Notes under the pieces: model-generated
What the model was told of the DNA's origin: nothing
Databases searched by the model: none
Seen by the model: only the letters and a program-made list of their open reading frames with translations
Assembly (NCBI GenBank): GCA_016872495.1
Contig: VGZT01000013.1
Location: 1 to 49,971 of the forward strand
Reading direction: 5' to 3'
Length of the DNA: 49,971 bases
Origin: SAR202 cluster bacterium
GTDB lineage: Bacteria > Chloroflexota > Dehalococcoidia > Lucifugimonadales > Lucifugimonadaceae
Shown here: piece after piece, positions 6,009-16,014 of the stretch
Layout: each line of letters begins with the position of its first letter
Numbering within the stretch: position 1 is the stretch's first letter
Made by a program: the position numbers and the translations under genes

Positions 6009-7949
6009 CTAGCGGCCAGAGCCGGGGGAGCCCGCGACCCCTAACGAGAAGTGCGCGGGGACCATCGAGGCGGGCGTGAGCGCACTGACCGCGATGTACA
6101 GCCGCTCGCCGGGAACAATCTCATTGACTGTCAGCAAGCCTGTTCCGGAGTGGCTTACCGGCAGCGGTAGTACAACCGCCGTCTGGCCGTCACGTACACG
6201 GACCACCTGCACCAGCCACTCTTGCGGGATGCGGTCGCTGATCCTGGTGAAGCCCCGGGCCAACCAGCCGCTGTCCGACCCGGACAGGTCCGCCCAGCCG
6301 ATTTCCGGGATTTCGAAGCCGTTGAAACAGGCGCCCTGCAGGTAGATCGCATCGTCGGTGATGTACTCGAGGCGCAGCAGGACCCGCTTGCCGGCGAATG
6401 GGGTCAGGTCGATCCGCTCCTCGACCCACCTCTGGCTCCTGCCCGTGTAACCGCTTCCGAACGCGTTGCCGTTGGCATTCCGCGCGGTCGTGTGGAGGCC
6501 GTCGAGGACCTGCCAGGTCGTTCCACCATCGGTGGACACCTCGACATATGCGTAGTCCCATTCCTCTTCGATCTGGTACCAGGCCGAGAACTTGAGAGTC
6601 GCGGTCGGCGTCGCGGAGAGGTCGACCTCGCGCGTCAAGGTCGTGTTGATTGAGTCGCCCTGATTGGTCCACCAGCAGGCCCGTGCGCCCCCGGGCTGTG
6701 AAATCAGAGCGGTCGAGGGCTCCCCTTCGAACCTTATGGTCACGCGATCCCGTCCGGGCGGCACCTCGTAGTACATGACCCCCATCTGTGAAGCGACCCC
6801 AGTCCGGGTCGAGTCGATGTTCAGGCGCGTCACCGGGACCAAATCAGGTTCGCGTCCTTCGTAGCCGAAGGCCGTGCCTGATTCGCCCAGGAGGTTTGCG
6901 ACCACCCAGTCGCGAAATATGTCGAGCGGCGGGACGCCTCTTCCGGAACGCCTGAGCGACGAATCCACGCCGGCCAGCCCGTCGAGCGGGTCAGCAATGA
7001 GAGCCTGGATGATGGCATCGCCACCGTAGTGCTCGTGCAGGTACTGGAGGAACAGTAGCGCGCCCCCGTAATTCGATCCCGTGTTCCGGTCATCCGGCCA
7101 TGCGTTCAACTGTGAATTCGGATCGGCGACGTAGGCCTGAACGCTCTGGGTCGGGTAGCCAAGGAGGTACACCGCCAGTTCGGACAGACCCTCATTGATC
7201 CAGGTGTCCTCGGTAGGATCGACGTAATGGTGCAGCGCGTGCTGTAGCTCGTGTGTGAGCAGGCCGTAGTAGGGCTCTGTGGCCAGGGTGGCCTTCTTGC
7301 CGTCCATGTAGATGATGCTTCGCTCGTTGGAGAACGGGTGCACAGCCCTCGGATAGGCATCGCTTGAGCTGAAGTAGCCGGCCATGCCTGCGTCGAGTTC
7401 GGTGTGAAAAATGGTGATCCGGCGGTCGCCATCGAGTCCGATGCGGTCCGCGGCCGGGAACAGTCGCATGACGCGAGGCCAGATCCGGCTCTCAAACTCG
7501 GCTATCGAAGCGTCGAGCTTCCCGGGTTCGACCCGCATCGACTCGTCGAAGATCCAGATTGCGTTCGCGCTGACCCGGCGCACGACCGCCGGCGCCTGGC
7601 GGCCGCCCCCTCTCTCTCGTAGCACCCAGAGCGTAAGGCGATCACCTTCCCGGATCTCGGGCGGCGTCTTCGCAGGTGTGACGTCGATTGGCTCTGCCTG
7701 GCGGAGGCGGAGTCTGCGCGCGAGTTCGACCGGGTCCCGGTCGGGCGGCGTCGGGATGGTCTGGACCGGTGCAGGGGAGACAGGTGTCAGCGATGGCGAG
7801 GCCACCGCGGTTGCGACGGCAGCCGGGGTCCCCACAGTTGCGGTCGGCAAGGAGGGCGGACGCGCTTCCGGGCGGCACGCTAGCGCCAGCAGCAGGAAAA
7901 GGGCAACGAGCGGTGCGCGGACGCGGGCGAAGTTCGGGCGAACCTTCAA
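6009..7949 (-). CDS. Secreted lipoprotein zinc metallopeptidase
   Basis: A 646-residue exported protein. The N-terminus is a lipoprotein signal peptide ending in LLALAC (lipobox Cys25), followed by a Pro/Thr/Ala-rich linker to about residue 75. The zincin motif HELQH is near residues 233-237 and is followed by WINEGLSELA, where the Glu is the likely third zinc ligand (gluzincin pattern). The C-terminal half resembles the MAM-like module of immune-inhibitor-A (M6) peptidases, with a WYQIEEEWDYAYVEVSTDGG segment. The TTG start overlaps the pth stop by four bases (TTGA), so it is probably translated by coupling. Substrate unknown. Confidence 0.85.
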   Translation of the reverse strand: MKVRPNFARVRAPLVALFLLLALACRPEARPPSLPTATVGTPAAVATAVASPSLTPVSPAPVQTIPTPPDRDPVELARRLRLRQAEPIDVTPAKTPPEIREGDRLTLWVLRERGGGRQAPAVVRRVSANAIWIFDESMRVEPGKLDASIAEFESRIWPRVMRLFPAADRIGLDGDRRITIFHTELDAGMAGYFSSSDAYPRAVHPFSNERSIIYMDGKKATLATEPYYGLLTHELQHALHHYVDPTEDTWINEGLSELAVYLLGYPTQSVQAYVADPNSQLNAWPDDRNTGSNYGGALLFLQYLHEHYGGDAIIQALIADPLDGLAGVDSSLRRSGRGVPPLDIFRDWVVANLLGESGTAFGYEGREPDLVPVTRLNIDSTRTGVASQMGVMYYEVPPGRDRVTIRFEGEPSTALISQPGGARACWWTNQGDSINTTLTREVDLSATPTATLKFSAWYQIEEEWDYAYVEVSTDGGTTWQVLDGLHTTARNANGNAFGSGYTGRSQRWVEERIDLTPFAGKRVLLRLEYITDDAIYLQGACFNGFEIPEIGWADLSGSDSGWLARGFTRISDRIPQEWLVQVVRVRDGQTAVVLPLPVSHSGTGLLTVNEIVPGERLYIAVSALTPASMVPAHFSLGVAGSPGSGR

Positions 7950-10831: not shown

Positions 10832-12127
10832 GTGGCAGACGTAAGGCCTTTCAGAGGGATCCGGTACGACGACCGCCAGGCTGGCGCGCTTTCGTCGAAC
10901 CTTGGCCCGACGTACGACATGATCTCGCCCGAGAAACAACGGGAGCTGCTCGACCGCTCGCAGACGAACGTGATCCGGCTGGAGCTGGCGCTCGACGCCG
11001 ACCCCGGCGAGAAGCTGGATGGGCGGTACGACAGCGCCGCTGCGATGCAGGCCAACTGGTTTTCGGCAGGAATCCTAAGGCGCGACGCGGAGCCCTCGAT
11101 GTACGTGATCGAGGAGTCGTTCAACTTCCGGGGCGCCCGGTACCGGCGTTTCGGGCTTCTGGCCGCCGTACGCCTCGAAGACTACGACCGGGGGATCATT
11201 CTGCCGCATGAGTACACGCGCGCCGGGTTCGTAGCCGACCGGCTTCACCTCATGAAGGCGACGCGGGCCAACTTCAGCCCCCTGATGGTCCTGTTCCGTG
11301 AGCCGCCGGGGGCCCCGATCAGCCGTGCGCTGATGGACGTGGTGAGCAACCCGCCGGACGCCAACGGGAATCCGCCGGACATGCCCGCGATTCGGGTCTG
11401 GCGGATTACCGACCCCGAGAGGCTGGCCACCCTGACCGCGGCATTCAAAGACACGAAGTTGTATATCGCCGACGGCCACCACCGCTACGAAGCGGCGCTC
11501 CTTTACCGTATCCAGACTCGGTTCGGGCACCGCGCGCGGTCCGACGAGCCGTCGAACTTCCGCATCATGAACCTGATCGAGATCGGCGACCCGGGGCTCT
11601 TCCTGCTTGGCTACCACCGGCTCGTGTCCAACGCCACCGGCGAGGAGCTGGAGGCGTTGAAGAGGAGGCTGAAGACGCAGTTCGCGCTGCGGCCGTGGCC
11701 GGCGCGGCTCCCACTGGACTCGGAGACGATCGATTCGCAGTTGAACCGAGAGACGCGCTCAACCCTGGTGGTCGGGATCGCCGGCCTTGAAGGCGCCGAC
11801 CTGCACCTGGGCGTCCTTCGCAATCCTGCCCACGCGACCTCCGAACGGGAGTCGTCGGATTACGCCCGGCTCCATACCGAGGTTCTCCGTGAAGTGTTCG
11901 GTGAAGCGCGGGAGCCGCAGGTGATCTCTTACGCGGCCGACCCGGTCGAGGCCATCAAGAACGTCAAGGCAGGGCGGCGCCAGCTGGCCTTCATCATGCG
12001 GGCCCTGAGCTCGTCGCAGTTTGAAGGCGTGGTGAGCCAGGGCCAGCGGTTGCCGCCCAAGTCGACCTACTTCTACCCGAAACTGCCCGCGGGCGTTGTC
12101 ATGCAGAGCCTGGACGGCGTGCTCTAG
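10832..12127 (+). CDS. DUF1015 family protein
   Basis: A 431-residue cytosolic protein of the DUF1015 family, recognisable from the N-terminal ADVRPFRGIRYD, an internal ILPHEYTRAG segment and IADGHHRYEAAL. The conserved His residues of DGHHRYE suggest a metal or phosphate site. Members are often encoded near serine, glycine or hydroxyacid metabolism genes; the biochemical function is not established. The start is GTG at 10832. It converges with the alcohol dehydrogenase, with only 19 bp between the two stop codons. Confidence 0.88.
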   Translation: MADVRPFRGIRYDDRQAGALSSNLGPTYDMISPEKQRELLDRSQTNVIRLELALDADPGEKLDGRYDSAAAMQANWFSAGILRRDAEPSMYVIEESFNFRGARYRRFGLLAAVRLEDYDRGIILPHEYTRAGFVADRLHLMKATRANFSPLMVLFREPPGAPISRALMDVVSNPPDANGNPPDMPAIRVWRITDPERLATLTAAFKDTKLYIADGHHRYEAALLYRIQTRFGHRARSDEPSNFRIMNLIEIGDPGLFLLGYHRLVSNATGEELEALKRRLKTQFALRPWPARLPLDSETIDSQLNRETRSTLVVGIAGLEGADLHLGVLRNPAHATSERESSDYARLHTEVLREVFGEAREPQVISYAADPVEAIKNVKAGRRQLAFIMRALSSSQFEGVVSQGQRLPPKSTYFYPKLPAGVVMQSLDGVL

Positions 12128-13280: not shown

Positions 13281-13990
13281 TCAGGCGCAGGGATGATACC
13301 GCGAAGGGACCAGGCGCCCCGCCTGAGCCATGGCCGTTCGACAATCAGGCGCTCCAGGTGTAGCCGGCTGCCTGTCGTACTTCCGCTGGATGAGCCGGTT
13401 CGATCCCGGCGGCCCGGCGGCTTCGGCGCCCTGGTCCTGTACAGGCTCCAGGACCTCGCCGGAGTCATATCCCTGGTCCGCGATCACAGTCCGCGAGCAC
13501 GCCGGTGGCCTTTATCCCGCGCAGCAATGGCAGAGCTGCTCTACATCTGGAGCCTCGCCCACGGCGGGGATGAAGCGTGCATGCTGACCTGCGGCATCGA
13601 CCGCCAAGTGGATCTTTGTGGTTAATCCACCCCTGGAACGCCCCAGAGCCTGGTTTGGCGCCCCCCTTTTCCACTGGCAGGCTGCCGGTGGGCACGGACG
13701 AGCTTGGAGTCGGTCATGACCCACGAATTCTTCGGGTCTTCCAGCAGGACCTTGAAGATCCTCGCCAGGATTCCGGCCTTCGCCCAGCGTGTAAACCGTT
13801 TGTGCGTACTCTTCCAGTTGCCGTACTCAGCCGGCATGTCCTTCCAGCGTGCGCCGCTCCGCAGCACCCAGAGCACGCCATTTACGAAGGCGCGGTTGTC
13901 CTTTGCCGTCACCCCAACATGTCCTGGCCGCCCCGGCAGGAACCCCTCGATCTTGCGCCACTGCGTTGCACTCAGCTCGTACCGCTTCAT
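13281..13990 (-). pseudogene. IS5-family transposase, frameshifted and truncated
   Basis: Three reading frames together give a DDE transposase. The first (13990-13622) starts MKRYELSATQWRKIEGFLPG and reaches the first catalytic Asp in MTDSKLVRAH. The second (about 13724-13512) continues with ALGRSRGGLTTKIHLAVDA. The third (13487-13281) holds IADQGYDSGEV with the second Asp and a PPGSNRLIQRKYDRQ segment. The first frame change could be the programmed frameshift common in IS427-type elements; the second is not expected. The C-terminal domain carrying the catalytic Glu is incomplete. Probably inactive. Confidence 0.88.
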
Positions 13991-14090
13991 ATGGACCCCA
14001 CAAGCTGGAGGCCTGCAACCTGCTATTCCCTGCCTCGGGCCAGCATCGTGGCCTGGCCGCAGGTTTCTCTCAATTGTCGATTGGCCCTAG
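13281..14090 (-). mobile_element. Decayed IS5-family insertion sequence (IS427-like)
   Basis: Transposase remnants cover 13281-13990. The 100 bp upstream of them (13991-14090) is the element's 5' end, starting CTAG-GGCCAATCGACA when read on the minus strand. The 5' end is nearly identical over about 90 bp to the miniature element at 39970-40086. The expected matching end downstream of the transposase is not intact. A diverged GGGCCACAATC at 13272-13282 may be its remnant, but I cannot be sure. The CTAG at 14087-14090 contains the stop codon of the peroxiredoxin gene. Confidence 0.85.
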
Positions 14091-14800
14091 TTGGTAACCG
14101 CCTTGAGTTGTTCGATGATAGTGGCGGCCGCGACGTGTTCTGAGTAGCGCTTTCCGATGAAACTCCACTTGAGCTGGCCGTCCTTGCCCACGATGAAGGT
14201 GGAGGTCGATGCCAGGCCGTCGCCATGGAGATTGAAGACCCCGTACTTCCTGGGGACTGCCGAATCGCCGCTCGTATAGGCGATGTGGAAGGGCGCGCCG
14301 AACTGCTTGACCGCGTGTTCCGCCCCGGTCAGGTCATCGGTGGATACTGCGATGACCTCGGCGTGAAGCGCTTCGATCTGTTCGTACTGGTCTCGCAGCT
14401 GCACGAGCTGCTGGCGGCAGGAGGTTCACCACCAGGCACGGTAGAAGACCAGGACGACGTTCTTCTGGCCCAGGTACTGGCTCAGGGCGACTTCGCCACC
14501 CTGCGCGTCGGGGAGCTTGAAATCGTGCAGCCCCGGGCCGAGTTGCGTGGCTGGCGGGGCGGCCGGGACCGTCGCGGCAGGAGCGCTGACCGGAGCCGTG
14601 GTGGGTGCCGCCGTGGCCGCCGGTGGCGAGGTCGGGGGTGGGGTCGCGGTCGCGATCGTTACCGGCCGGGACGCTACCTGCGTCGCGGTCGGAACCGCTT
14701 CGCCGGCGCACGCCAGGACCAGCGCGCTCGCGGCGGCCGCGGCTACGGCCCTGAGCCGGACCGGAGAGCGCCTGGGCACTGCCGTGCAAGCGGAACGCAT
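14087..14800 (-). CDS. Selenocysteine-containing lipoprotein peroxiredoxin (candidate)
   Basis: Read through an in-frame TGA at 14426-14428, this is a 237-residue AhpC/TSA-type peroxiredoxin. The N-terminus is a lipoprotein signal (LVLAC) followed by a Pro/Ala/Thr-rich linker to about residue 85, so the enzyme should sit outside the membrane, lipid-anchored. The active site reads VLVFYRAWW-U-TSCRQQLVQLRD: the TGA (residue 125) falls where relatives have the peroxidatic Cys in FYRGxWCxxC, giving a UxxC motif. The thioredoxin-fold remainder is intact in the same frame (VIAVSTDD, FNLHGDGLASTSTFIVG). A 6-bp stem with a CGUGC loop lies 15-31 nt after the UGA. ATG at 14800 has GGAGGGG upstream. The alternative is a simple nonsense mutation. 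Requires selA, selB and selC elsewhere in the genome. Confidence 0.82.
14395..14411 (-). promoter_or_regulatory. Candidate bacterial SECIS hairpin
   Basis: On the minus-strand mRNA, bases 15-31 after the UGA form a perfect 6-bp stem, GCAGCU with AGCUGC, closing a 5-nt loop CGUGC. A G is the second loop base, followed by U, as bacterial SECIS elements usually require. The loop distance from UGA (21 nt) is within the usual bacterial range. The stem overlaps codons for QLVQL and could partly reflect coding constraint. Confidence 0.6.
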
Positions 14801-14877
14801 GTCCCCTCCGTTCGACGCCGCCCCGTGTTGCGGCCGGCAATACCTCTGGTACGGCGCCGGGGTGGCGGCGGATGTAC

Positions 14878-16014
14878 CTAGCGGCCGGCCCGCATGGCCG
14901 CAATCGACTTGCCGATCGCCTCGAGGGCGCTGTCCACGTGGTTCGTTTCAACCCAGCCCATGTGACCGACCCTGACGATCTTCCCGGTCATCTGTCCCTG
15001 GCCGCCGCCGATTACCGCTCCGTAGTTCTTGCGCACGCGGGCGACCAGCGCCTTCCCGTCGATCCCATCCGGCACGCGGATCGCGGTCACGGTATCGGAC
15101 GCGAATCGGCGCTCCGGAAACAGTTTCAATCCGAGCTTTTCGGCGCCATTGCGGCACCGGTCCGCGGTCCGGTGGTGACGTTCGAATACGCTCTCGATCC
15201 CTTCGTCGACGATCCGCTGCAGGGACACCTCGAGCGCGTACATGGCCGGCAGGCAGGGCGTGAACGGCGGCTGGCCGATCTTCAGGAAGTCGCGGTACTG
15301 CGCGACGTCGTAGTAGTACTTCGGCATGCGAGCCGTCTGGTACGCCTTCCAGGCGCCGGCGCTGAATGTGATCATCGCGATCCCCGGAGGCGCGATCCAG
15401 GCCTTCTGCGAGGCCGTTGCCACGACATCGATGCCCCAGGCGTCGACTGCGATCGGCATGGCGGCCGCGCTCGACACGGCGTCGACCAGCACAAGAGCGC
15501 CTGAGTTCTCCTTCACGGCATGCGCGATGTCTTTCAGCGGATTCGCGACGCCCGTCGAGCTCTCGTTGTGCGTCACGATCACGGCCCGTACGTCTTTTTC
15601 GGCCTTTAGCTTTGCCTTCAGCGCAAAAACATCAACCGGCTGACCCGCAGGGAACTGCATCGCGACTACGTTCGCGCCGTACGCCTTCGCGATGTCGCCG
15701 AACCGGTCGCCAAAAAACCCGATCGTCAGCGACAGCACCTTGTCGCCCGGCGACAGCGTGTTGACGATTGCCGCTTCCATCGCCCCGGTGCCGGAGGACG
15801 TAATGAAATAGGCGTCGCCCGCGGTCATGAAGACGGTCTTCAGGTTGGCGGTCATGCGCGCCAGCATGTCGGCGTACTCAGGCCCGCGATGGTTCATCAT
15901 CTGGGTGCCCACCGCCTCGAGGATGTCGTCCGGGAGCGGGACCGGTCCGGGGATGCGGAGGTTCTCACCCGCCAGCCGTGCGGCGGTGGTCTTATTGCTG
16001 GTCTGCGATGCCAT
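14878..16014 (-). CDS. Class V aminotransferase (serine/alanine-glyoxylate type)
   Basis: A 378-residue PLP enzyme of fold type I, close to serine-glyoxylate and alanine-glyoxylate aminotransferases. The N-terminal substrate region reads RIPGPVPLPDDI and MNHRGPEY. The PLP Lys is in TASQKAWIAPPGIAMI, with the family's SQK...PPG spacing. VDAVSSAAAMPIAVD holds the PLP-ring Asp. It probably moves the amino group of serine or alanine to glyoxylate or a similar keto acid, consistent with the hydroxyacid genes elsewhere in the window. ATG start at 16014. It precedes the peroxiredoxin gene by about 77 bp on the same strand. Confidence 0.9.
   Translation of the reverse strand: MASQTSNKTTAARLAGENLRIPGPVPLPDDILEAVGTQMMNHRGPEYADMLARMTANLKTVFMTAGDAYFITSSGTGAMEAAIVNTLSPGDKVLSLTIGFFGDRFGDIAKAYGANVVAMQFPAGQPVDVFALKAKLKAEKDVRAVIVTHNESSTGVANPLKDIAHAVKENSGALVLVDAVSSAAAMPIAVDAWGIDVVATASQKAWIAPPGIAMITFSAGAWKAYQTARMPKYYYDVAQYRDFLKIGQPPFTPCLPAMYALEVSLQRIVDEGIESVFERHHRTADRCRNGAEKLGLKLFPERRFASDTVTAIRVPDGIDGKALVARVRKNYGAVIGGGQGQMTGKIVRVGHMGWVETNHVDSALEAIGKSIAAMRAGR

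Follow-up and report, generated by a model that had tools for sequence, protein, structure and literature searches.

Does the TGA that interrupts a redoxin gene of this SAR202 cluster bacterium end the protein, or is it read as selenocysteine (Sec)? The gene occupies positions 14087–14800 of the window, by which we mean the whole 49,971-nucleotide stretch of contig VGZT01000013.1 that was analyzed. The original prediction had these coordinates right and left the strand, which is minus, unstated. Read with TGA as U, the gene comprises 237 codons (237 aa) followed by TAG, and the TGA at codon 125 (14426–14428) is its sole in-frame stop, which bears out the earlier description of a frame open on both sides and free of other stops. 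A plain ORF list breaks the gene into ORFs of 124 aa and 105 aa, the split that a standard gene caller had been expected to make. A Shine-Dalgarno-like GGAGGGGAC (GGAGG) lies immediately 5′ of the ATG on the same strand (14801–14809). The coding sequence opens with a lipoprotein signal peptide running through lipobox Cys31 (ALVLAC; 14708–14800, minus strand) and continues with a low-complexity Ala/Pro/Thr linker between the lipid anchor and the domain (14549–14707, minus strand), the length of which varies widely among relatives. The AhpC/TSA-fold domain (14090–14548, minus strand), identified by Pfam and in the predicted structure, starts near residue 85 and contains the motif F-Y-R-A-W-W-U-T-S-C; the Pfam model AhpC-TSA (PF00578) matched residues 92–212, spanning the TGA (E 5.8e-24; 84.8 bits against a cut-off of 26). 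The PS51257-type signal pattern ending in C31 supports the prediction that the product is a bacterial lipoprotein. A lipobox was present in 55 of the 64 Sec copies with a frame closed upstream, and several of the remaining Sec copies are domains inside longer chains or use a different membrane anchor; the earlier claim of a lipoprotein is thus supported.

To follow the codon through the family, we searched 400 Chloroflexota genomes with the protein. Sec was entered as Cys in the query, so the search could not favor TGA. We found about 25 close relatives, mostly at 39–51% identity, whose reading frames contain TGA (the stretch reported for one of them, L044, holds a TAA as well). Alignment to homologues at residue 125 had been proposed as a check, and the outcome favors Sec: when the alignments were mapped to DNA, every TGA in the close relatives with fetched loci fell at query residue 125, the more distant homologues have TGA (Sec) or TGC/TGT (Cys) there, and the codon in an ordinary peroxiredoxin is ACC (Thr). 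A tree placed the Sec rows to one side of a branch; because its support was weak (76/28) and the branches long, we do not claim a single origin of Sec.

We additionally scanned GTDB contigs for the DNA pattern FYRA-x-W-UGA-xx-C-R. This gave 58 stretches, all but four of them redoxin domains, nearly all from Chloroflexota and many labelled Dehalococcoidia. Full-domain copies came from dozens of Chloroflexota contigs, Dehalococcoidia/SAR202 included, and one resides in the closed genome of the cultured SAR202 strain "Candidatus Lucifugimonas marina" JH1073 (L065). Because the scan selects for TGA, we use this set as evidence of spread, and codon conservation is drawn from the protein search only. 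Pattern matches in Eubacterium, Methylotenera, and a Bacteroidetes MAG were rejected as chance, their frames stopping within a few codons. The sole full-domain Sec copy of the scan labelled outside Chloroflexota (L069:7927, Spirochaetaceae MAG bin103) is a real domain that could reflect a mis-binned contig or a transfer. A search of a plasmid collection returned distant redoxin matches only. We conclude from these sequence comparisons that the gene is one member of a widespread, uncurated family of predicted Chloroflexota selenoproteins that includes a cultured SAR202 strain.

Sec insertion would depend on dedicated machinery, and the original prediction had proposed looking for selA, selB, selC, and selD in the same genome. 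All four are present in the host genome (2.34 Mb; 98% complete; a 102-contig draft). SelB scores above its curated cut-off, tRNA-Sec scores 70 bits with anticodon TCA (ARAGORN), and selA and selD were both found, the latter with an in-frame TGA of its own at CAGUAGK. The absence of selB and selC had been named as evidence against a selenoprotein; since both are present, that test favors the selenoprotein reading. tRNA-Sec was also found in the Ca. Lucifugimonas marina genome. Although selA occurred in 20/20 genomes bearing the closest Sec copies, this co-occurrence has little weight because selA is common across the phylum (322 of 400 Chloroflexota genomes). As a side observation, the SelD of the host genome is itself a predicted selenoprotein (L119:3061–4000; G000:C38).

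Downstream of the UGA, the minus strand contains a SECIS-type hairpin, GCAGCU-CGUGC-AGCUGC (14395–14411), with six base pairs and a G at the second loop position. It begins 17 bases past the T of the UGA and places 20 nt between UGA and loop. Published limits for bacterial SECIS elements are a loop of 3–9 nt, a stem of 4–16 bp, and a spacing of 16–37 nt, and the published model also calls for a G at one of the first two positions of the loop (PMC13188914); the window hairpin (6 bp, loop CGUGC, 20 nt) lies inside these limits. A short hairpin of the type GCAGCUC-GUG-GAGCUGC occurs in nearly all Sec copies. It overlies the codons for QLVELQ, and conservation of the protein therefore had to be ruled out as its source. 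We found that at least 6 of 7 pairs were kept in 63 of 68 copies, compared with 12.5 ± 3.0 after synonymous-codon resampling (maximum 23 of 68 in 1000 rounds). The copies also covaried: 20 cells had changed on both sides, none of 500 shuffles (which treat the sequences as unrelated) attained the covariation score, and the signal was gone when the partner was slid. Compensatory changes include CAA..TTG for CAG..CTG and a basal pair found as G-C, C-G, U-A, or A-U. Cys and Thr homologues form just 2–4 Watson–Crick pairs at the hairpin position.

The window copy taken alone is unremarkable, and the SECIS evidence is for this reason a family-level result. Its stability is not unusual (z 0.25), the minimum-energy fold of the single post-UGA stretch is unlike the family hairpin, and six pairs are common when the gene is resampled under its own codon usage. 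RNAalifold drew 4 of the 7 pairs, and an Rfam scan of the window gave no match at gathering scores. From the family alignments, we conclude that the putative SECIS hairpin is kept by compensatory changes exceeding what the protein requires. With its synonymous compensatory changes, the hairpin constitutes a clean set of natural data on the rules that bacterial SECIS elements follow. The host genome encodes a second Sec redoxin (L116:3807–4394; G000:C16; FYRGFFUGICRQQLVELQ), anchored by one hydrophobic N-terminal segment; its hairpin, GCAGCUCGUUGAGCUGC, is the same as that of the window family.

Together, the conserved UGA, the Sec machinery, and the covarying hairpin support the earlier claim of a selenoprotein, and on this sequence evidence we consider it very probable that the gene is a working selenoprotein gene. 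Three other accounts of the TGA were weighed. A Cys codon might have decayed to TGA by nonsense mutation, leaving a split pseudogene, as could be suspected from the mobile-element fragment adjoining the gene and from the two pieces that gene callers would give. We regard this as very improbable, since the TGA stands at the same codon in relatives down to ~40% identity whose frames are open on either side, the hairpin is conserved, and the Sec machinery is complete; for the family as a whole, the conserved TGA rules it out. A sequencing or assembly error at codon 125, conceivable in a draft of 102 contigs, is more improbable still: the nearest relative (L086) has the TGA too, as do independent assemblies that include the PacBio-closed genome of the L065 isolate (PMC10444878). 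Equally hard to credit is reading of UGA as Trp or another residue through general suppression or genome-wide reassignment. Read-through of that kind would likewise yield the full protein, but TGA is the normal terminator of RibF, TrpA, and other genes flanking the redoxin in the window, homologues have Cys and not Trp at the position of residue 125, and the genome has the Sec machinery. An in-frame TGA was absent from all the other flanking genes checked.

The place of residue 125 in the active site differs from the one first proposed. The original prediction put Sec at the peroxidatic Cys. Aligned with AhpE, archaeal Prx, and a Chloroflexota PrxQ-like protein, however, U125 falls on the catalytic Thr of PxxxTxxC, and it is C128 (TGC codon 128; 14417–14419, minus strand) that aligns with the peroxidatic Cys (CP). 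The UxxC motif that had been proposed, U125-T-S-C128, is supported by the frame and the alignments. Relative to PxxxTxxC, the window protein has R121 for Pro and U125 for Thr and retains C128 alone, and neither it nor its Sec relatives have an Arg at the position aligned with the active-site Arg that precedes the late core strand. In the alignments, the residues that activate CP (Pro, Thr, and Arg) are replaced family-wide. The AlphaFold model (pLDDT 94) has the Prx fold with U125 just ahead of the first long helix, and structure comparison matched it to AhpE (Z 21.0; 148 residues aligned at rmsd 1.9; 30% identity). With Pro and Arg missing and Sec at the Thr position, the name peroxiredoxin, as given in the original prediction, holds for the fold (Pfam, AlphaFold, and the AhpE match) and not for the catalytic site. 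We conclude that the protein combines a peroxiredoxin fold with a thioredoxin-style UxxC pair.

We infer the following mechanism. SelB and tRNA-Sec would insert Sec at the UGA of codon 125, directed by the downstream hairpin. The product would then be exported and lipidated on Cys31, the flexible linker tethering it to the external face of the membrane. There the selenol of Sec125 would attack an extracytoplasmic substrate (a disulfide, a peroxide, or some other oxidised thiol) and reduce it. As the resolving partner, Cys128 would close a selenenylsulfide with Sec125, and the pair would be regenerated by a thiol donor of the membrane or the extracytoplasmic space. From the motif, fold, and signal peptide, it is likely that the protein performs thiol/selenol redox chemistry outside the membrane, and we think that Sec125 probably attacks first. 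The opposite assignment, a selenoprotein that acts as a true peroxiredoxin in which Cys128 is peroxidatic and Sec125 is merely auxiliary or resolving, draws on the alignment of C128 with CP of AhpE and archaeal Prx and on Prx/AhpE being the closest fold. We consider it unlikely, given that the residues activating CP are replaced across the family, that Sec is the stronger nucleophile, and that one Sec form (L049) keeps Sec and the hairpin although its second Cys is Asp (UGPD). That protein belongs to a group in which a SurA-N-like region is fused to the redoxin (L049:1501–2631, L048, L050, L051, and L057); Cys forms among these fusions have an additional TlpA-like WCPPC-type domain.

The setting of the gene recurs in other genomes. 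Many have the order aminotransferase, Sec redoxin, DUF1015, and LigA, with TyrS and RibF farther out. In the window, the conserved neighbors are a class-V aminotransferase (14878–16014, minus strand) and a DUF1015 protein (10832–12127, plus strand). Between DUF1015 and the redoxin lie an alcohol dehydrogenase and an IS4/5-type transposase fragment (13622–13990, minus strand), the latter not belonging to the redoxin gene. L086, the closest relative at 72% identity, has DUF1015 immediately beside the redoxin. Because the gene order is common to many genomes, the gene has probably resided at this locus for a long time and been inherited vertically.

Several relatives carry more than one Sec domain or gene. 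On the minus strand of L075 (OY282385.1; 6350–4236), a single TAA/TAG-bounded frame of ~700 codons specifies a lipoprotein that strings together three redoxin domains; every domain has a UGA (5969, 5390, and 4577) and a SECIS-like hairpin of its own. L082 (OY282365.1) has a two-domain version with two UGAs (4488 and 5223) and a hairpin per domain. Since a 2026 review already gives two to three Sec for a small subset of prokaryotic selenoproteins, the number of Sec residues in these proteins is no record; the repetition of whole Sec domains on one chain is worth a look. Separate genes also occur in series: three nearby genes for Sec lipoproteins whose Pro/Thr linkers are long at L121:6500–9700 (G049), interspersed with small CxxCH (c-type-cytochrome-like) lipoproteins (e.g., 6940–7494), and two-gene Sec lipoprotein arrays in several relatives. 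An excalibur-like Ca-binding insert (DLYDDNGNGRISCDEA...DRDGDGVVCE) occurs in the linkers of two Sec lipoproteins (L032:108–1400 and L042:3–860). In Ca. Lucifugimonas marina, a redoxin-like lipoprotein lacking a UxxC/CxxC site (L065:1206–1850) adjoins the Sec copy.

A literature search of open-licence papers returned none describing this Chloroflexota family, and the main text of the SAR202 cultivation paper (PMC10444878) makes no mention of selenium. Likewise, no NCBIfam model matched the window protein at its cut-off. Because gene callers split the gene and no such model captures it, exported selenoproteins of marine and subsurface Chloroflexota are likely to have been missed or mis-annotated. 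The family would link SAR202-type selenium use with redox chemistry outside the membrane, and the cultured strain Ca. L. marina makes it testable. We take seriously, without favoring it, the possibility of a separate, unnamed, surface-tethered family, largely of Chloroflexota, in which the Prx fold was remodelled with Sec for the catalytic Thr and multiplied into arrays and polypeptides of two or three Sec domains, forming an extracellular redox/peroxide shield in SAR202/Dehalococcoidia.

Among known systems, AhpE (Rv2238c) and PrxQ/Bcp share the fold; unlike them, the window protein lacks the Pro and Thr of PxxxTxxC and the catalytic Arg, has its Sec three residues ahead of CP, and is predicted to be exported. 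The selenocysteine peroxiredoxin PrxU (TxxU) likewise has Sec inside a peroxiredoxin fold, but there Sec is the peroxidatic residue, whereas in the window protein it lies three residues earlier. The best NCBIfam match, over the active-site half, was NF040769 (SelL-related redox protein), which matches all 40 aligned sequences at E 0.001 or better; the window protein reaches 59.1 bits against a cut-off of 120, matching as far as about residue 170 of the full-length chain. NF041057 (Rcas_1661 family thioredoxin-like (seleno)lipoprotein), to which the 2026 review gives a UxxC site, is a Sec-containing lipoprotein, as predicted here, and so provides a precedent for the exported location that the original prediction had called uncommon for a selenoprotein peroxiredoxin; the window protein scores 25.5 bits against its cut-off of 190, with similarity reaching only as far as the active site. 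The "Prx-like thiol:disulfide oxidoreductase" (PF00578, UxxC/UxxU) is a listed family of predicted selenoproteins (PMC13188914, PMC9312934). Compared by its listed features, it shares with the window protein the AhpC/TSA domain, the UxxC motif, and Cys homologues with CxxC, and the window protein differs in its lipid anchor, long linker, and lineage specificity. Because it shows the listed features and no NCBIfam model matched at cut-off, we consider the predicted selenoprotein a new member of this group, best filed by those features among the already known Prx-like thiol:disulfide oxidoreductase (UxxC) selenoproteins, as a lipid-anchored, lineage-specific representative.
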